Source: Hyphomicrobiales bacterium
Lineage (GTDB): Bacteria > Pseudomonadota > Alphaproteobacteria > Rhizobiales > Beijerinckiaceae
Reading direction: 5' to 3'
DNA length: 64,000 nucleotides
Assembly (NCBI GenBank): GCA_947455995.1
Contig: CANGQA010000003.1
Span: forward strand, 1 to 64,000
Both the position numbers and the translations under genes were made by a program. Of the stretch, positions 2,917 to 64,000 are shown one piece after another (the stretch's first letter is position 1; each line of letters opens with the position of its first letter). The notes beneath the pieces were generated by a model that saw only the letters and a list, made by a program, of their open reading frames with translations, did not search any database and had not been told where the DNA came from.

Positions 2917-4449
2917 TTACAGCGGGATATTATCGTGTTTTTTCCATGGCCGTTCGGCCTGCTTGTGGGCCAGCATAGCCAAAGCGCGGGCCAGACGGCG
3001 ACGGGTGGAATGGGGCATGATCACCTCGTCGATATAGCCGCGCTCGGCCGCCACGAAGGGCGAGAGGAAACGCTGCTCATATTCGGTGGTACGGGCGGCG
3101 ATTTTTTCAGGATCATTCAAATCCTGACGGAAGATGATTTCCACCGCGCCCTTGGCTCCCATGACAGCAATCTGTGCGGTCGGCCATGCGTAATTGATAT
3201 CGGCACCGATATGTTTGGAGGCCATCACGTCATAGGCACCGCCAAATGCCTTGCGGGTGATAACCGTCACCAAAGGCACGGTGGCCTCGGAATAGGCGTA
3301 AAGAAGCTTGGCCCCATGCTTGATCAGCCCGCCATATTCCTGCGCTGTGCCGGGGAGAAACCCGGGAACATCGACAAAGCTGATGATCGGAATTTCGAAA
3401 CTGTCGCAGAAGCGCACAAACCGGGCCGCCTTGCGCGAGGCATCCGAATCCAGCACGCCGGCAAGCACCATGGGCTGGTTGGCAACGATGCCCACCGTAC
3501 GGCCCTCGATGCGCCCGAAACCGGTAATGATATTGCGGGCATAAGCCTCCTGGATTTCAAAGAAATCCGCCTCGTCAACGGTCTTTAAAATCAGTTCTTT
3601 CATATCATAGGGCTTATTGGGATGATCGGGGATCAGGGTATCGAGCGAGGTATCAACACGTTCAGCCACATCGAAACTCTCCCAGACAGGCACACCATCG
3701 GTGTTGTTGGCGGGCAGAAAATCAATCAGGCGGCGCAGCTGTAACAAGGCTTCCAGATCGTTATCCCAAGCACCATCGGCCACCGATGAACGGCTGGTAT
3801 GGACCTTGGCCCCGCCCAGTTCCTCAGAGGTAACGGTTTCATTGGTCACGGTTTTGACCACATCCGGTCCGGTCACGAACATATAGCTGGTATCGCGCAC
3901 CATGAAAATGAAGTCGGTCATTGCGGGCGAATAGACGTCACCACCTGCACAAGGGCCCATGATCAGGGAAATCTGCGGAATCACGCCGGATGCGATGACA
4001 TTGCGCTTGAACACTTCGCCATAACCGCCAAGTGCTGCCACACCTTCCTGAATACGCGCCCCGCCGGCATCGAAGAGTCCGATGATCGGCGCACGCATTT
4101 TCAACGCCATATCCTGAATCTTGTTGATTTTGGCCGCATGTGTTTCCGAAAGCGAACCGCCGAATACGGTAAAATCCTTGGCAAACACAAATACGGTACG
4201 GCCATTCACCGTGCCCCATCCGGTGACGACGCCATCACCGGGCACCTTGTTGTCCTCCATGCCAAAGTCGACGCAGCGATGCTGCACGAACATGTCGAAT
4301 TCCTCGAAGGAGCCGCGATCAAGCAGCAGGTCGATGCGCTCACGGGCTGTCAGCTTGCCACGGGCATGCTGGGCATCAATACGTTTCTGACCACCACCGA
4401 GATGGGCTTCACGACGACGCAGATCAAGCTTTTCAAGGATATCTTTCAT
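2917..4449 (-). CDS. pccB: Propionyl-CoA carboxylase beta subunit (carboxyltransferase)
   Basis: 510 residues from the ATG at 4449; the frame extends 13 codons further upstream but the family starts at [15 protein letters not shown]. Both crotonase-like halves are present. The first has the acyl-CoA loop [19 protein letters not shown] and [13 protein letters not shown]. The second has [17 protein letters not shown] and [13 protein letters not shown]. Such subunits move CO2 from biotin to propionyl-CoA, giving methylmalonyl-CoA; related enzymes act on acetyl- or methylcrotonyl-CoA. No biotin carboxylase/BCCP gene (pccA) is in the window, which is common in alphaproteobacteria. Confidence 0.92.
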
Positions 4450-57378: not shown

Positions 57379-57950
57379 AAGACGATATCCACAAGATTTT
57401 TGACCGGCCCGAAAATAAACTGCCGGATCAACCCCCTGTTATTAAACAGATAATTTTTTTAAACGACATCCCGCGCCTTTGGCACGGGAAATGCAGATAC
57501 CTTCCCGAAATCAATAAGGTATCTGACCATGGCTGCAACCCGTCCACTTCCCCACAGGCAACTGACCCTGAAATCAGACCAACTGGTTCCAAAAACAGGT
57601 GCTCAGATTATTGATCTGTCGGCTTATTTTGCACTGGTTGGCAGCCAGCACAAACCAGGGATAGAGCATCAAAAATTAGCGGAGCGTGCTCCCAACTACC
57701 CACACAAACTGCAAGGCAAGGCAGTCCGGTTTTTTCAGGGCCAGGAAGAGTTGCACCTGACCAACAAGCAGTAATTGCTTTCTTTATTTGACCTTCGAGC
57801 CAACAATTGTCGCCACCACTCCGGGCGGATTGGACAAGCGGGCCGAATTGCCGCAAACAGTCTCTTGTTGCAGAACCGTGCCGCACTATCTCGGCTCGAT
57901 GCACATTCGCGCTTTCCTGCAGATCCATGATGGACGATCAAAGGCCAGTT
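57379..57950. other. Mostly non-coding region before the NCS1 permease gene
   Basis: About 570 bases with no strong gene. A weak open frame at 57529-57774 is listed separately. No TPP riboswitch elements (CTGAGA and the conserved arm) were found, arguing against a thiamine-precursor permease. The permease has its own RBS, AAAGG, 6 bases before the ATG at 57951. Confidence 0.4.
57529..57774 (+). CDS. Possible small unknown protein
   Basis: 81 residues (MAATRPLPHRQLTLKSDQLV at the start) with an AAGG element 11 bases before the ATG. Hydrophilic and basic, with no signal or recognised domain. The lack of similarity to anything I know and the overlap with another weak frame make it doubtful. Confidence 0.3.
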   Translation: MAATRPLPHRQLTLKSDQLVPKTGAQIIDLSAYFALVGSQHKPGIEHQKLAERAPNYPHKLQGKAVRFFQGQEELHLTNKQ

Positions 57951-59222
57951 ATGACAGATCACCCCGCCTCCCCGATCAATGAAGCCCTTGCTCCAGTGAG
58001 CACTTCAGCCCGTGCCCTGGACGGCATGTCGCACGTCTCTTTATGGTTCAGCCTTGGTGTCGGCCTGCTTGTCATCCAGATGGGAGCCTATCTGGTCCCT
58101 GTCATGGGTCCGAAAGATGCCATGATGGCCATTGTGCTTGGCTCGATCATCGGATCAGGCTTGCTGGCATGGACTGCCAAACTCGGAACCGATACCGGCT
58201 TGTCGAGTGCTGGACTGATCCACCATGTCTATGGCAGCGGTTTTGCCCGCTTGCCGATTGTGCTCAACATTGTGCAGCTGGTCGGCTGGACCACGTTCGA
58301 GCTGGTCGTGATGCGCGATGGCACCACGGCAATCGGCGCACGCATGTTCGACCTTCACCCGGAAAGCCCGCTGGCGCTTGTTGTCACCACGCTGCTTTGG
58401 GGGAGTGTCTTGAGCCTGTTGATGCTCGGGTCGATGCTGTCGCTGGTCCGCAATGTCGTCAACCGTTTCGGCCTGCCACTGGTCATCGCTTCACTTGTCT
58501 GGTTGAGCTGGCAGTTTATCGGCAAGCTGATGGCGCAAGATGCACAGGCCTTCTGGAACCGCCCAAGCACCGGTGAAATGGGGCTGCTAACCGCTCTGGA
58601 TCTGGTGATTGCCATGCCGGTTTCATGGTTGCCGCTGGTGGCCGATTATGCCCGCTTCGGGCGCTCCGGTGGCTCGACAATGCGCGGGACATGGATTGGC
58701 TATGCCATTGCCAATATCTGGTGCTACGGTTTGGGCATTGTCGTGGCCAGTCTGTCGGAGCCGGATGCCAATCTGGTCAATACCCTGCTTCTGGCGCAAG
58801 GCGGCTTGCTGGCACTGGGCCTGATCCTGCTTGATGAATTGGACAATGCCTATGGCGATGTCTATTCGGGGTCGGTCTCCTCGCATGCGCTGTTTCCAAC
58901 CGTATCGATCCGTCAGTGGGGCTTGGCTATTGCCATCCTGTGCACGGGACTGGCGATGTTGCTGCCGATGCATGCGCTGGAGCCGTTCCTGCTGTTGCTC
59001 AGTTCGATTTTCGTGCCGCTTTACGGGGTCATTTTGGGGCGGATGGCCTTCAGCCCTGGCCAACAAGCCCGGGAAAAGTCCTTCGATGTCGCCGCTGCCG
59101 TCATCTGGCTGTCAGGCATTGCCTGTTTCCACGGGGCCGCCCAGTGGGCCCCGCAATTCGGTTCGGCACTGCCAAGCCTGATCCTGACCTTCGGCGCCGC
59201 GTATGTGACGCGTCCCAGATAA
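57951..59222 (+). CDS. NCS1-family permease (cytosine/purine permease type)
   Basis: 423 residues from the ATG at 57951 (AAAGG before it). About 12 hydrophobic segments. It starts GMSHVSLWFSLGVGLLVIQMGAYLVP, and the family region LDLVIAMPVSWLPLVADYARFGRSG near 240 is clear. NCS1 transporters move nucleobases, hydantoins, pyridoxine or thiamine precursors with H+ or Na+. It converges on the gallate-type catabolic genes, so uptake of an aromatic or heterocyclic substrate for that pathway is possible but not shown. Confidence 0.82.
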   Translation: MTDHPASPINEALAPVSTSARALDGMSHVSLWFSLGVGLLVIQMGAYLVPVMGPKDAMMAIVLGSIIGSGLLAWTAKLGTDTGLSSAGLIHHVYGSGFARLPIVLNIVQLVGWTTFELVVMRDGTTAIGARMFDLHPESPLALVVTTLLWGSVLSLLMLGSMLSLVRNVVNRFGLPLVIASLVWLSWQFIGKLMAQDAQAFWNRPSTGEMGLLTALDLVIAMPVSWLPLVADYARFGRSGGSTMRGTWIGYAIANIWCYGLGIVVASLSEPDANLVNTLLLAQGGLLALGLILLDELDNAYGDVYSGSVSSHALFPTVSIRQWGLAIAILCTGLAMLLPMHALEPFLLLLSSIFVPLYGVILGRMAFSPGQQAREKSFDVAAAVIWLSGIACFHGAAQWAPQFGSALPSLILTFGAAYVTRPR

Positions 59223-59230
59223 CCGACCGG

Positions 59231-59261
59231 AAAGCCTGCTCCAGCAAAAGAGCGGGCTTTT
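59231..59261. terminator. Hairpin terminator between the permease and galC
   Basis: AAAGCCTGCTC (59231-59241) pairs with GAGCGGGCTTT (59250-59260) with one T-G wobble, around an 8-base loop. A short T/A-rich stretch follows. It can stop transcripts of the permease gene on the plus strand and, having A-rich arms, may act in both directions. Confidence 0.75.
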
Positions 59262-59281
59262 ATCATGATCACGCCTGAGGG

Positions 59282-59974
59282 TTACAGATCGTCGAGATGG
59301 TCGACATAGACCAGACCGGCTTTGGCGAGCGGTTCCCGCATCTTGTACATATCAAGGCCCAACACGCCAGAGGCGAGCTGGCGGCGCTTGTCTTCCTCGT
59401 TGGCCTTGCGTTGAGCCGCCTTGTCGGCGGTCGCTTTGGCCTGGGCCAGCGGTACCACCACCACTCCGTCATCATCGGCCACGATCACATCTCCGGCACG
59501 GATAGCGGCTCCGGCACAGACAATCGGCACGTTGACCGCACCCAAAGTGGCTTTTACGGTTCCCTTGGCCGAGATCGCCTTGGACCAGACTGGAAAGCCC
59601 ATCTGCTTGAGCGTACGGACATCACGGCATCCGGCATCAATGATCAAGCCTTTCACGCCCCGGGACTGCAAGGATGTGGCAAGCAGGTCACCGAACATGC
59701 CATCGCTGTTGTCGGTCGTGACCGCCACCACCAGCACATCACCGGGCTGGCATTGCTCGACCGCGACATGCAGCATCCAGTTATCACCGGGCTGTGCCAG
59801 CACCGTCACGGCACTGCCGGCAATCGCCGCCCCCGCCCAGACAGGCCGCATATAGGGCTGCATCAATCCGATACGGCCCATGCTCTCATGCACGCTCGAC
59901 ACGCCATATTCAGCCAAAGCGGCAGCAATGGCAGGATCAACGCGATGGTGATTGCGGACAACTACGGTTTTCAT
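59282..59974 (-). CDS. galC: 4-carboxy-4-hydroxy-2-oxoadipate aldolase (GalC/LigK, RraA-like)
   Basis: 230 residues from the ATG at 59974, which overlaps the galB stop (ATGA). The RraA-fold motifs are clear: [56 protein letters not shown], and [17 protein letters not shown]. The enzyme cleaves 4-carboxy-4-hydroxy-2-oxoadipate into pyruvate and oxaloacetate, the last step of the gallate and protocatechuate-4,5 pathways. It also decarboxylates oxaloacetate. Its role is supported by adjacent galB- and galD-like genes. Confidence 0.88.
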
Positions 59975-60699
59975 ACCAACTCCTCCAGCACCATCGGAAA
60001 CAGGCGTTGATAGGCCTCGCCATAGGTCATGGCCCGGCCTGAATTTCGGCCGCCCTGCATGCCGCGATTGAGGGCAACGCGGGTGTAATAATCCCAAAGA
60101 TGCTTTTGCGCCGAAAGCACCTCGAACGCCTTGCGCTTGATGTCCCAGACATCGTCGATATTGAGGATCAGATTGGGTTTGTAGTTGCACTGCTCGGGCT
60201 GGTGCGGCTCGAACAAGAACACCGGCGGGGCGGCATAGGCGCGCGTGGGATCAGGCTTGTGTCCTGCCGCTTGCGCGATAATCCGCGCTTCCTGGGCAAA
60301 GCGCGTCGCTTCGGGATGATCGAGATTGTAGGGATCTTCCAGCGAATGGGTCAGCACGAAAGACGGGTTCAACTCGTGCATCACATCAATGGCCCGGTCC
60401 ATCATGGCGGGCGTGGTGTGCAATGGATAATCTCCCGCATCGAAAAATTCGATCTCGGCTCCCAAAATACGGGCAGCCGTTTCTGCCTCGGCCTGACGCT
60501 GGGCCTTGACCTCTTCCAGTGTCACCCCTGCCTGTTTCCAGGCCCATTGGCTCTCGCCGCGTTCGCCAAACGACAGGCAAAGGATCTTCATCCGGTAGCC
60601 TTTGGCGTGATGCAGGGCAATGGCTCCACCGGCCCGCCACACAAAATCTCCGGGATGGGCGGTAATCACCAAGCCACTTTTGCCCTTGCTCATTGTCAT
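59971..60699 (-). CDS. galB: 4-oxalomesaconate hydratase, PIG-L/LmbE type (GalB-like)
   Basis: 242 residues from the ATG at 60699 (AAAGGAG upstream); an ATG two codons further in is also possible. Zinc-site pattern [16 protein letters not shown] replaces the AHPDDE of PIG-L deacetylases, as in Pseudomonas putida Gal[15 protein letters not shown] supplies the HxxH-like motif. GalB hydrates 4-oxalomesaconate to 4-carboxy-4-hydroxy-2-oxoadipate. It lies between galD (22 bases away) and galC (overlapping), so the three lower-pathway steps are in one unit. Confidence 0.85.
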
Positions 60700-60721
60700 G
60701 TTCTCCTTTGCAGTCGCTGTG

Positions 60722-61816
60722 TCATACATCCCAACGCGGAAAAACCGTGCCGTCAAACAATTTACGGGCGGTGCGCAACAAGCCCGCCTGCACTACCTTC
60801 ACGCCCGCACCCTCGCCTTCCAGCGTGAGCCTGACTGAAAATTCTCCCGTAGGGTGCTCAACCGAAATCACCTTGATCCCCCCCTCCGGCAAGAGAGCGA
60901 GCGCATGGGCGGGCGAGCCAGGCAACACACAAGCCGTTGCCACCGTGACGGCCGCAAACACGCCGATCGAGGCATGGCATTCATGCGGAATGAACGAGCG
61001 GGTCGCAATATTGCCACCTGCTTGTGGAGCCGCCACCAAAATCACTTTGGGGACCACCTTTTCCCTCACATCGCCCAAATGCATCAAGGGACCGGCTGCA
61101 AGCCTGATCTCTTCAAGACGCGCTTTTAAAACACTGTCCTGATCCAACTGGTCACGCGGCTCATAGCCGGTACGCCCGACCGATGAGGCCGCCAGCACAA
61201 TCACCGGCATACCGTTGTCGATCAGCGTGACATCAACCCCCGCCACCCGATCGACGCTGCGGCCAGTCGGCAACAAGGCCCCGCACACCGAACCTTCGGC
61301 ATCGAGAAAATCAATAGAAATCGGGGAGGAAAAACCCGGCACGCCGTCAATCCTTGCTGTTCCGGCCTCATTCACCACACCGTCATGGGTCTCGATCACC
61401 AGATCGGCAACTGTTCCGGTATTCAAGGTGCGCACCCGCACCCGTGTCTGCGGATCGGTGGCCTGCACCAGGCCACGCTCGATGGCAAAGGGGCCGACAC
61501 CGGCCAGAATATTGCCGCAATTGGGCGTGGTATCGACCATTGGACGATCAACCGAGACTTGGCAGAACAGATAGTCGATATCAATTCCAGGTTCGCTCGA
61601 GCGCGAGATCACCGCCACTTTACTGGTCAGCGGATGCCCGCCGCCGACACCATCAATCTGGCGTGGATCGGGCGAACCCATCACCGACAACAGCACGGCA
61701 TCCCGCCTGGCAGGGTCTTGGGGCAGATCATCGGCCAGAAAATAGGCGCCCTTGGATGTGCCGCCCCGCATCAACATGCAGGCAATACCCGACCGATCAC
61801 CTCTTGAGCTGGTCAT
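60722..61816 (-). CDS. galD: 4-oxalomesaconate tautomerase (GalD, PrpF family)
   Basis: 364 residues from the ATG at 61816 (AGGGAGAG upstream). PrpF-type isomerase signature: MLMRGGTSKGAYFLADDLP, QIDGVGGGHPLTSKVAVIS, TPNCGNILAGVGPFAIE with a catalytic Cys, and IPHECHASIGVFAAVTVATAC with a second. GalD converts the keto to the enol form of 4-oxalomesaconate for GalB. Other PrpF members isomerise aconitates, so the exact substrate is inferred from the galB-galC neighbours. It is first of the three-gene unit, and divergent from a dioxygenase gene. Confidence 0.88.
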   Translation of the reverse strand: MTSSRGDRSGIACMLMRGGTSKGAYFLADDLPQDPARRDAVLLSVMGSPDPRQIDGVGGGHPLTSKVAVISRSSEPGIDIDYLFCQVSVDRPMVDTTPNCGNILAGVGPFAIERGLVQATDPQTRVRVRTLNTGTVADLVIETHDGVVNEAGTARIDGVPGFSSPISIDFLDAEGSVCGALLPTGRSVDRVAGVDVTLIDNGMPVIVLAASSVGRTGYEPRDQLDQDSVLKARLEEIRLAAGPLMHLGDVREKVVPKVILVAAPQAGGNIATRSFIPHECHASIGVFAAVTVATACVLPGSPAHALALLPEGGIKVISVEHPTGEFSVRLTLEGEGAGVKVVQAGLLRTARKLFDGTVFPRWDV

Positions 61817-61981
61817 CTGCTTCTCTCTCCCTGCTGTGCCGTTTGCCGGTCTGTGAGCATCAAGCAATATAAACTGATCCAAGACTGATCAAGGCACAAA
61901 GTACAAATCATGATTTTGCACCGTGACAGCTTGATTCATTGTCCCAAAGCAGGCTCAATAAATCAAACAACGGAGAATACA

Positions 61982-62941
61982 ATGAACGACCCGACCGAAC
62001 CCTGTCATGATATTGCCCATCTCGGCCATGTCGAAATGTTTACCCCCAAACTGGCCGAAAGTGTCCATTTCTTCGTCAATGTGCTGGGCTTGACCGAAAG
62101 CGGACGCGAGGGGGACAGTGTCTATCTGCGCGGCTGGGATGATTACGAATTTCACACGCTGAAACTGACCGCCTCCCATACATCGGGCATGGGCCACGTG
62201 GCGTGGCGGACCATGAGCCAGCAAGCTCTCGAACGGCGCGTGAAAGTATTGCAAGCCAAAGGCTGGGGTGTCGGCTGGACCGATGGCGATCTCGGCCACG
62301 GCCCTTCCTACCGGGCACGCACACCGGATGGCCACCCCATCGAACTCTATTACGATACCACATGGTATGAGGCGCCCGAAGCGCTCAAACCCGCTTTGAA
62401 AAATCAGGCTATGAAATACCCAGCGCGGGGCTGCAATGCCCGCCGGATCGACCATCTGAACCTGTTGGTGCTGGATGTAGCGGAAACACGGGTTTTCTTT
62501 GAACAGGGCATGGGCATGCGGCTGACCGAACAGATCGTGCTGGATGACGGTACCGAGGCCGGAGCATGGATGACCGCCACCAACAAGACCTATGATATTG
62601 CCTTCACCAAGGACAATACCGGCGTGGCCGGGCGCTTCCACCACCTGACCTATGCGCTTGATTGCCGTGAGGATATTTTACGCGCTGCCGATGTGTTTCT
62701 GGAAAACGGTGTGTTTATCGAAACAGGGCCTCATAAACATGCCGTGCAGCAAACCTTCTTCCTTTATGTGTGGGAGCCGGGGGGCAATCGGGTGGAACTG
62801 GCCAATGCTGGAGCCAGACTGATGCTGGCTCCCGACTGGAAGCCGATCCGCTGGACACAGACCGAACGCGCCAAGGGACAGGCGTGGGGCTTGAAAACGG
62901 TCGAGAGCTTCCACACCCACGGCACGCCGCCAGTGGAATAA
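61982..62941 (+). CDS. Type I extradiol dioxygenase (catechol 2,3-dioxygenase-like) with altered acid-base residue
   Basis: 319 residues from the ATG at 61982 (GGAG upstream). Two VOC modules: LGHVEMFTPKLAESVHFFVNVLGL and RIDHLNLLVLDVAETRVFF. Fe(II) ligands are predicted at His158, His221 (GRFHHLTYAL) and Glu272 (GGNRVELAN). His253 and Tyr262 also match conserved active-site positions. The usual second-sphere acid-base His before D(I/V)AF is Tyr204 here (NKTYDIAF). The gene is divergent from galD, so it is the probable ring-opening enzyme for the pathway, in place of the type II gallate or protocatechuate dioxygenase normally expected. Substrate uncertain. Confidence 0.85.
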   Translation: MNDPTEPCHDIAHLGHVEMFTPKLAESVHFFVNVLGLTESGREGDSVYLRGWDDYEFHTLKLTASHTSGMGHVAWRTMSQQALERRVKVLQAKGWGVGWTDGDLGHGPSYRARTPDGHPIELYYDTTWYEAPEALKPALKNQAMKYPARGCNARRIDHLNLLVLDVAETRVFFEQGMGMRLTEQIVLDDGTEAGAWMTATNKTYDIAFTKDNTGVAGRFHHLTYALDCREDILRAADVFLENGVFIETGPHKHAVQQTFFLYVWEPGGNRVELANAGARLMLAPDWKPIRWTQTERAKGQAWGLKTVESFHTHGTPPVE

Positions 62942-62949
62942 GCGGCACT

Positions 62950-64000
62950 TTAGTAATCTTTACCGGCATTGCGGAACAGACGGCCGATTTTCTCGATCTC
63001 GCTGTCTGTCATCATCGGGGATGTGGTGACGGTCAACGTGCGTGCGGCCAGCGCTTCGGCCTGCGGCATCGGATCGGGCGCGATGATACCCTTGAGCGCA
63101 GGATAGGCCGTCAGTGGTCCCGCAAAGAGCCGCGAAATACCCAATCCTTCATCGATCGATTGGGCCAGCACCTTATCGGCCTGTTTTCGGCTCGCCATGC
63201 TGACAAACAGGAACCGGAAAGCCGGGCTGACACCTGCAGGTGGCAAATGCACTTCAGAACGCGGCACCGATTGCAGGACGGCTAACAGCCGCTGGACCCG
63301 TCCCGCAACCGCCTGTTGATGCCCCGCCAAACGGTTTGCGGCGTTCAAGGCCACCCCTTGCCGCCACACACCCAAACGGTGCAGCGGGACAGCCGAAAGA
63401 TCGTCTTCCCCATAAAGCGCATAGCGCGGCAGACTGGTGCCCTTACGATGGCTCGATGCACCAAAGACCAGCCTGTAATGTTCAGGATCATAGAAGGCAT
63501 GATAAGCTAAGAGACCGAGGCATTGACGCCATTCCTGCCGCCATGACGGAGGCTGCATCTGCATGGCCAATCTCTTCAAGCCCTGACGGATGATCGGGTT
63601 GTTGCTGACAAGACAGCCACCTTGAAACAACGTCAATCCTGTGCCTCTGGCAAAACTGAACAGGCCCAGATCACCCGCAAGACCGACCGACAGGCCCTTG
63701 ACTCGCGCGCCAAAAGCTTGGGCAGCATCCTCAATCAGCACCACATGCGGGGCAATCCCTTCCATCAACACTTTCAAAGGGCTCATCGGGGTAACATGCC
63801 CGCCGAAATGGGTCGGGACAACCGCCAGAGTATCGTCACTGACCAACCGCGCCAGCATGCCAAGATCGAAATCGAACCGGGATTGGTCGGTATCGCACAA
63901 GCGGACCTGCAATCCGGCCCGATGCGCCGCAAGAGCCACTTTTGGAGACGTAAAAGCCGGAAGAATAACCTCGCGCGCCAAGGCGCCTTTTTTGAGATAT
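62950..64000 (-). CDS. DegT/DnrJ/EryC1/StrS aminotransferase-fold protein, partial, PLP lysine absent
   Basis: The frame runs off the right edge; 349 residues are readable, and the N-terminus lies beyond 64000. Family motifs: REVILPAFTSPKVALAAHRAGL, VLIEDAAQAFGA with the PLP ring-stacking Asp region, and FSFARGTGLTLFQGGCLVS. The Lys that forms the PLP Schiff base, expected in the RGKG/TKN position of that last motif, is Thr here. The protein may therefore not be a normal aminotransferase. A related family member, ColD, carries His there and acts as a dehydratase. Neighbouring sugar genes are outside the window. It is convergent with the dioxygenase gene. Confidence 0.75.
   Translation of the reverse strand, partial: YLKKGALAREVILPAFTSPKVALAAHRAGLQVRLCDTDQSRFDFDLGMLARLVSDDTLAVVPTHFGGHVTPMSPLKVLMEGIAPHVVLIEDAAQAFGARVKGLSVGLAGDLGLFSFARGTGLTLFQGGCLVSNNPIIRQGLKRLAMQMQPPSWRQEWRQCLGLLAYHAFYDPEHYRLVFGASSHRKGTSLPRYALYGEDDLSAVPLHRLGVWRQGVALNAANRLAGHQQAVAGRVQRLLAVLQSVPRSEVHLPPAGVSPAFRFLFVSMASRKQADKVLAQSIDEGLGISRLFAGPLTAYPALKGIIAPDPMPQAEALAARTLTVTTSPMMTDSEIEKIGRLFRNAGKDY

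Follow-up and report, generated by a model that had tools for sequence, protein, structure and literature searches.

Tannins and hardwood lignin are degraded by way of gallate, syringate and 3-O-methylgallate as central intermediates. The described dioxygenases that open the rings of gallate (GalA, DesB) and of 3-O-methylgallate (DesZ, MgaAB) are type II enzymes of the LigB fold and are partnered by GalD, GalB and GalC. In the parts of the AromaDeg article considered here, the gallate and methylgallate enzymes are assigned to the LigB superfamily and neither compound stands among the substrates of type I enzymes (PMC4250580). Here, we analyze a locus in a 64,000-nucleotide stretch of DNA from a Hyphomicrobiales bacterium of the Beijerinckiaceae (positions 1 to 64,000 of contig CANGQA010000003.1, assembly GCA_947455995.1; this whole stretch is referred to as the window). 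The locus has the galBCD module in common with the gal clusters of Pseudomonas putida KT2440 and Pseudomonas NGC7 but differs from them in that (i) galA is lacking, (ii) a gene for an NCS1/CytX-like transporter lies beside galC, and (iii) no LysR gene is found among the scanned neighbours. Divergently from galD, a gene encodes a protein that shares the inferred substrate class, product and partners of GalA, DesB, DesZ and MgaAB, whereas it consists of VOC domains, has no LigB domain and belongs to another sequence family. We suggest that this VOC gene likely encodes a non-heme iron ring-opening dioxygenase for gallate, and in many relatives probably also for 3-O-methylgallate, that takes the place of GalA, DesB and DesZ. 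Judged by titles and abstract openings, the matches listed from the open-access literature include neither a dioxygenase of type I for gallate or 3-O-methylgallate nor a description of the VOC/galBCD pairing.

The VOC protein scores 338.1 bits against the catechol 2,3-dioxygenase equivalog model TIGR03211 (catechol_2_3; cut-off 320.2) and 205 bits, under the cut-off of 321, against the HpaD model. PF00903 matches it in two stretches, as expected of paired VOC domains, and neither PF02900 nor PF07746 matches it at 0.001, i.e. a LigB fold with a LigA part was not found. Its AlphaFold model (mean pLDDT 84.8; residues 300-319 below 50) is similar to 3lm4 (Z 38.6), XylE (1mpy, Z 36.4) and HPCD (1f1x, Z 31.8). 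Thus, the proposal of a first-pass annotation of this DNA that the divergent gene codes for a type I, XylE/HPCD-like VOC enzyme is borne out by the TIGR03211 score and the fold matches.

The protein has the His-His-Glu iron site of XylE and HPCD, and its three ligands, His158, His221 and Glu272, are invariant in an alignment of 100 clade rows (set up without the short L096 and without L116, which is in two VOC pieces; here and below, L numbers denote loci and G numbers genomes). Asn160 and Trp196, corresponding to Asn157 and Trp192 of HPCD, and the equivalents of HPCD His248 and Tyr257 (positions of XylE His246 and Tyr255) are also kept in all 100 rows, the HPCD residues being paired with the window protein through the HPCD-like row L012. 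HPCD Arg243 is matched by Thr248 in a pairing that is our own reading. An unexpected difference is at position 204, where the PDB alignments show Tyr in the window protein and the catalytic His in XylE (His199), 3lm4 (His201) and HPCD (His200). This residue is Tyr in 99 of the 100 rows and Cys in the remaining one (L068). Among all fetched copies with 60-100% identity, 127 of 128 have Tyr here and one has Cys, and ten of ten fetched relatives with 25-49% identity have His; these last two counts take in near-identical copies and genes fetched twice and are not independent. In a FastTree phylogeny, in which long branches are flagged and from which L002-L010 and pieces shorter than 250 residues are left out, the Tyr clade is set apart by a branch that has a local support of 100%. 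Given that the paired VOC domains and the 2-His-1-Glu site are present and that Tyr204 replaces the second-sphere catalytic His, we describe the protein as related by descent to type I extradiol dioxygenases rather than as a classical member. Its best PDB match, 9wgj (399 bits), which also has Tyr at position 204, is deposited under the chain name 'Catechol 1,2-dioxygenase'; it is absent among the 50 rows of the fold comparison, and no paper on it was found in the open-access literature.

The TIGR03211 score and the annotation of several plasmid copies as 'catechol 2,3-dioxygenase' could be taken to mean that the VOC protein is just a conventional catechol 2,3-dioxygenase encoded beside galBCD by chance. 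We regard this as very improbable. The neighbours of the window gene are those of the oxalomesaconate pathway and not those of a catechol meta pathway, and the linkage with gal genes described below is far beyond chance. Moreover, catechol-type meta-cleavage clusters are found instead around three of the His-type relatives (L163, L168, L149), with L149 adjoining genes for 2-hydroxymuconic semialdehyde dehydrogenase and HpaH, both above their cut-offs; this comparison covers L149, L163, L168 and the ambiguous L170, and leaves out L011-L015 and L018. Finally, genome G114 holds a copy of either type, and the two belong to different pathways (L104, Tyr-type; L149, His-type).

To what extent the VOC clade and galBCD occur together is seen in 199 genomes of the order, for which a completeness of at least 90% was requested. 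The VOC clade (E <= 1e-60) is present in 30 and GalB (E <= 1e-40) in 45 of these genomes, and both are present in 27 compared with 6.8 expected (Fisher 3e-18, phylogeny not corrected). In 19 of the 27 genomes the two genes are at most 10 kb apart (at most 1 kb in nine), in five they are separated by at least 23 kb and in three they are on different contigs. When loci are chosen solely by similarity to the VOC protein (the best 80 of 458), a gene for GalB, LigJ, GalC or GalD lies near the VOC gene in 50 of 80 cases, and in 34 of the 51 with 7 kb or more on either side; these counts, obtained by tblastn with a floor of 80 bits, can miss distant copies. On plasmids, 77 records have a VOC match; 11 of the 14 regions opened carry a Tyr-type copy, and nine of these (L157-L162, L164, L166, L167) have annotated pathway genes. 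The search for the same gene pair in other genomes that was proposed in the first-pass annotation is therefore strongly positive, with GalB in 27 of 30 VOC genomes and recurrence on plasmids. As a separate observation, eight genomes (G028, G029, G109, G116, G132, G141, G145, G170) have GalB but neither the VOC clade nor a LigA match; therefore, still other ring openers may exist.

The VOC gene stands with pathway genes in at least six arrangements: divergent in the genus of the window; VOC-galB-galC-galD in Acidobacteriota and Chelativorans; galB-VOC-galC-galD in G064, G111 and G130, on Agrobacterium plasmids and in Thioclava; galB-galC-x-VOC in Bradyrhizobium; galD-galB-galC-DUF1932-VOC in G090, G122 and G023; and VOC-hydrolase-LigJ-GalC in L047. 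These varied gene orders argue against mere inheritance of one arrangement. The association is thus also found in Acidobacteriota and, on plasmids, in Thermus, Agrobacterium, Pantoea and Thioclava; in Thermus oshimai, VOC, GalB-like and GalC-like genes lie together with a dehydrogenase gene. At five of the 80 loci the unrelated hydratase LigJ takes the place of GalB and the VOC gene is retained; the LigJ label was checked with a copy from a LigAB cluster, which matches PDB 6dwv with 572 bits. Additional proteins are encoded in some of these clusters: a DUF6282 protein (PF19799, 223 bits) within the VOC-galB-galC cluster of the T. oshimai plasmid (L158:9597-10517), and a conserved protein of approximately 300 residues without a Pfam match at 1e-5 between galC and the VOC gene in L038 (7039-7947) and the Bradyrhizobium loci, a relative of which on a Roseomonas plasmid is annotated as an ABC transporter substrate-binding protein.

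The genome from which the window derives (3.13 Mb in 158 contigs, 94% complete) has galB, galC and galD of the P. putida-type gallate pathway together, and galA was not found. The only PF02900 (LigB fold) protein in this genome is DODA-like; it scores 155 bits against the 4,5-DOPA dioxygenase model (cut-off 233) and matches no other NCBIfam model at 1e-25. PF07746 (LigA) has no match in the genome, where no positive control matched either, and the same model matches 24 of the 199 genomes of the order. Nor were LigAB or a LigC-type dehydrogenase of the protocatechuate 4,5-cleavage pathway found (LigC, none at 1e-30), and a DUF1932 dehydrogenase is lacking at 1e-20. Thus, the earlier statement that the window has no type II gallate or protocatechuate enzyme stands, and a LigB-family gallate/protocatechuate dioxygenase elsewhere, which the first-pass annotation had named as the finding that would speak against a type I route, was not found in this 94% complete genome. 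The pattern extends to the order, in that a LigA match is absent in 20 of the 27 genomes with both VOC and GalB, the window's own included (same-genus genomes G001-G004 are left out of the LigA survey). Three other candidates in the genome were considered: a LigI-type hydrolase of 2-pyrone-4,6-dicarboxylate (PDC), a lone 41% relative whose surroundings, a transporter-type cluster on contig C26, give no support for a role in the pathway; a VanA-like protein without an NCBIfam match at 1e-25 that lies among transporter genes with no visible oxalomesaconate gene and whose partner reaches the cut-off of none of its matching models; and an intradiol protein that is above the cut-off of PF00775 and below those for catechol 1,2-dioxygenase and chlorocatechol 1,2-dioxygenase. 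The latter two were rejected. The VanA-like and intradiol proteins have no positional tie to galBCD.

Two alternatives had been offered at the outset, i.e. that a type I enzyme provides a new ring-opening route into the 4-oxalomesaconate pathway from a trihydroxy- or carboxy-substituted aromatic, or that the true dioxygenase lies elsewhere. Given that no LigB-family gallate/protocatechuate enzyme was found in the genome and that the gene pair recurs widely, the former is better supported. On the sequence evidence, the best reading is that the VOC enzyme would be a non-orthologous replacement of the type II enzymes GalA, DesB and DesZ, and we have moderate confidence that a variant of the type I dioxygenase lineage does the work of GalA and DesZ.

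Neighbouring genes give clues to the substrate. LigC, for which the best PDB match of the reference is PmdC (9azo, 461 bits), occurs in 16 of the 199 genomes, 15 of which are among the 19 with a LigA match over 90 bits. Because LigC is present in three of the 30 VOC genomes and at none of the 80 VOC loci, it is improbable that the VOC enzyme produces a semialdehyde on which LigC would act. By contrast, genes for O-demethylation (LigM or DesA) are found at 16 of the 80 VOC loci; the vanillate/3-O-methylgallate O-demethylase LigM in L060 scores 768.6 bits (cut-off 580), and a DesA-like protein (syringate O-demethylase) in L056 scores 797.8 bits, just short of the cut-off of 800. A LigI-like PDC hydrolase is encoded without LigC at 12 of the 80 VOC loci, and PDC can be obtained from 3-O-methylgallate without LigC (PMC12314914). 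One-carbon enzymes (MetF-, PurU- or MetE-like) are encoded at 14 of the 80 loci. A protein resembling cobalamin-independent methionine synthase (PRK06520), which possibly takes the methyl groups from O-demethylation, is encoded in the VOC cluster in L119 (7779-8879), L120, L088, L099 and L159, and directly before the VOC gene in the first four of these. On the Agrobacterium pAt plasmid, galB-VOC-galC-galD is followed by a gene for a tannase (PF07519, 438 bits), and a tannase relative (51%) is encoded in L054. Tannase releases gallate. For the window's own genome, gallate would be the simplest substrate, given that LigM, the DUF1932 dehydrogenase and LigC were not found there and that opening of gallate would give oxalomesaconate directly.

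Several observations weigh against a function of the VOC protein in opening the gallate ring. The catalytic His that is replaced by Tyr is reported, in the passages cited, as a proton source in HPCD (His200; PMC11264262) and as indispensable in BphC (His194; PMC6880040), and is described as similarly positioned in DesB and BphC (PMC3962378). None of GalB, LigJ, GalC and GalD is encoded nearby at 17 of the 51 well-flanked loci, some of which have LigM instead (L053, L070, L072, L075), and two of the 11 Tyr-type plasmid loci (L165, L169) have no annotated pathway genes. GalB is missing in three of the 30 VOC genomes, and nine of the 30 have a LigA match, seven of them over 90 bits (a count that sets aside the matches under 40 bits in G041, G084, G143, G182 and G215). 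Furthermore, the VOC clusters of L101, L102, L103, L118, L036, L077 and L157 also contain a LigB gene, and a ring opener is therefore already present there. In four of these loci (L101; L102, at 3314-4189; L103; L118) LigA, LigB and an alpha/beta hydrolase share the VOC cluster in sets that resemble MgaAB-MgaC of Pseudomonas NGC7. In Roseomonas, the LigB-type gene is followed by a hydrolase gene with which the VOC gene overlaps. The VOC protein in such clusters would be a second ring opener, for gallate beside 3-O-methylgallate, or would have another role. VanAB is encoded nearby in L102 and VanA in L103.

In that case the VOC protein could be an isomerase, a tautomerase or another lyase with a ring-opened intermediate of the same pathway as its substrate, for instance 4-carboxy-2-hydroxymuconate as proposed for MgaD of Pseudomonas NGC7, with LigAB opening the ring where it is present. 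The VOC superfamily includes isomerases, and loss of the proton-donor His from nearly the entire clade together with the shared LigB clusters at seven loci fits this idea. For NGC7, it has been proposed that a further step is required after ring opening and before GalD (PMC12314914). However, the iron ligands, the positions of XylE His246 and Tyr255, Asn160 and Trp196 are kept in all 100 rows, and the 20 of 27 VOC and GalB genomes without a LigA match would be left without a known ring opener. We therefore consider a lyase or tautomerase function unlikely and favor a ring-opening dioxygenase.

A second set of adverse observations concerns the substrate. LigM was not found in the window's genome, in which no search for tannase was made. 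The LigI label is weak, the best PDB match being a PDC hydrolase (224 bits) and the best NCBIfam model that of 4-sulfomuconolactone hydrolase (301 bits, cut-off 500). PobA adjoins the T. oshimai cluster and would suit protocatechuate. The VOC protein might instead be a type I protocatechuate 4,5-dioxygenase, the product of which would be oxidised by an aldehyde dehydrogenase or the DUF1932 dehydrogenase. LigM, according to its NCBIfam name, also yields protocatechuate from vanillate; T. oshimai has an aldehyde dehydrogenase in addition to PobA around the VOC gene; and the DUF1932 dehydrogenase is encoded near the VOC gene at 30 of the 80 loci. However, LigC is missing at all 80 loci and in 27 of 30 VOC genomes, and the DUF1932 (PF09130) dehydrogenase, which is present in 36 of the 45 GalB genomes, belongs to VOC and LigAB clusters alike (e.g. 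L124:6375-7790, L125:11823-12845, L056:11540-12457). Its co-occurrence with true LigC in L124, L125 and L136 rules it out as a general LigC stand-in. The window's genome, in addition, has neither a DUF1932 dehydrogenase at 1e-20 nor LigC at 1e-30 and only the lone LigI-like protein. We find protocatechuate improbable as the substrate, and suggest that it and a tautomerase-like role are the alternatives to weigh first.

If the VOC protein is a gallate dioxygenase, then it would open gallate to 4-carboxy-2-hydroxymuconate/4-oxalomesaconate, with the corresponding methyl ester as the ring-opened product of 3-O-methylgallate, and GalD (tautomerase), GalB (hydratase) and GalC (aldolase) would subsequently generate pyruvate and oxaloacetate. 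In this scheme, two neighbouring hydroxyls of gallate would chelate the iron, superoxide would attack and a ring bond next to C4 would break. Because C3, C4 and C5 all carry hydroxyls, by our derivation a C4-C5 break (extradiol to the 3,4-pair) and a C3-C4 break (intradiol) would give the same 4-carboxy-2-hydroxymuconate, and steering by the second-sphere His would therefore be unnecessary. Tyr204 would replace or bypass the proton-donor His, acting either as proton donor or merely in shaping the pocket. The H200F variant of HPCD is reported to be capable of intradiol cleavage, and the Tyr clade would be a natural counterpart of the HPCD His200 variants.

The features of the locus are collected in the table. 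The family models and PDB matches identify galD, galB and galC as the gallate-type lower pathway and agree with their earlier description as a single minus-strand unit; the unit is real, and of its coordinates the end of the galC frame is at 59282 rather than at 59231 as first given. The galB and galC genes overlap by 4 bp, and ATG 61816 is the most likely start of galD. The VOC start agrees with the preceding GGAG and with homologues. In a scan of positions 59100-63100 for promoters and terminators no signal clearly exceeded shuffled sequence.

Features of the galBCD/VOC locus in window coordinates, with the evidence for each
Feature	Coordinates	Strand	Evidence
VOC-fold (type I) extradiol-dioxygenase-like protein, 319 aa; proposed gallate / 3-O-methylgallate ring-opening dioxygenase	61982..62941	+	TIGR03211; AlphaFold model
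Codon of iron ligand His158 (XylE His153)	62453..62455	+	alignments
Codon of Tyr204, at XylE His199 / HPCD His200	62591..62593	+	PDB and clade alignments
Codon of iron ligand His221 (XylE His214)	62642..62644	+	alignments
Codon of iron ligand Glu272 (XylE Glu265)	62795..62797	+	alignments
galD, 4-oxalomesaconate tautomerase	60722..61816	-	NF033377 525 bits (cut-off 440); PDB 6p3j 447 bits
galB, PIG-L-type 4-oxalomesaconate hydratase	59971..60693, start approximate	-	PDB 5cgz ('4-oxalmesaconate hydratase') 281 bits, over almost the entire protein
galC, 4-carboxy-4-hydroxy-2-oxoadipate aldolase	59282..59974	-	NF006731 377 bits (cut-off 179); TIGR02798 362 bits (cut-off 304.5); PDB 3noj
Intergenic region, divergent, between galD and the VOC gene	61817..61981	.	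165 bp; GGAG ahead of the VOC start

The NCS1/CytX-like transporter gene (57807-59222) is convergent with galC and among the compared loci is found beside it in the closest relatives only (L021, L022, L052); it is a conceivable, if unsupported, gallate transporter. At approximately 39600 in the window, a gene 58% identical to that of a PurU-like protein from a VOC cluster probably belongs to ordinary one-carbon metabolism.

The evolutionary scenario that we put forward more tentatively is that an unrecognised, widespread ring opener for gallate and 3-O-methylgallate may have arisen from catechol 2,3-dioxygenase-like ancestors, with the change from His to Tyr as the defining step and a residue for extradiol steering that was no longer needed. 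If the proposed function is correct, then many genomes without LigAB-type enzymes, as in 20 of the 27 genomes with both VOC and GalB, may nevertheless be able to cleave these aromatics, and this clade would be wrongly labelled as 'catechol 2,3-dioxygenase' in alphaproteobacteria, Acidobacteriota, enterobacteria and Thermus. The clade would also provide a natural test of the role of the second-sphere His and of the choice between extradiol and intradiol cleavage in extradiol dioxygenases.

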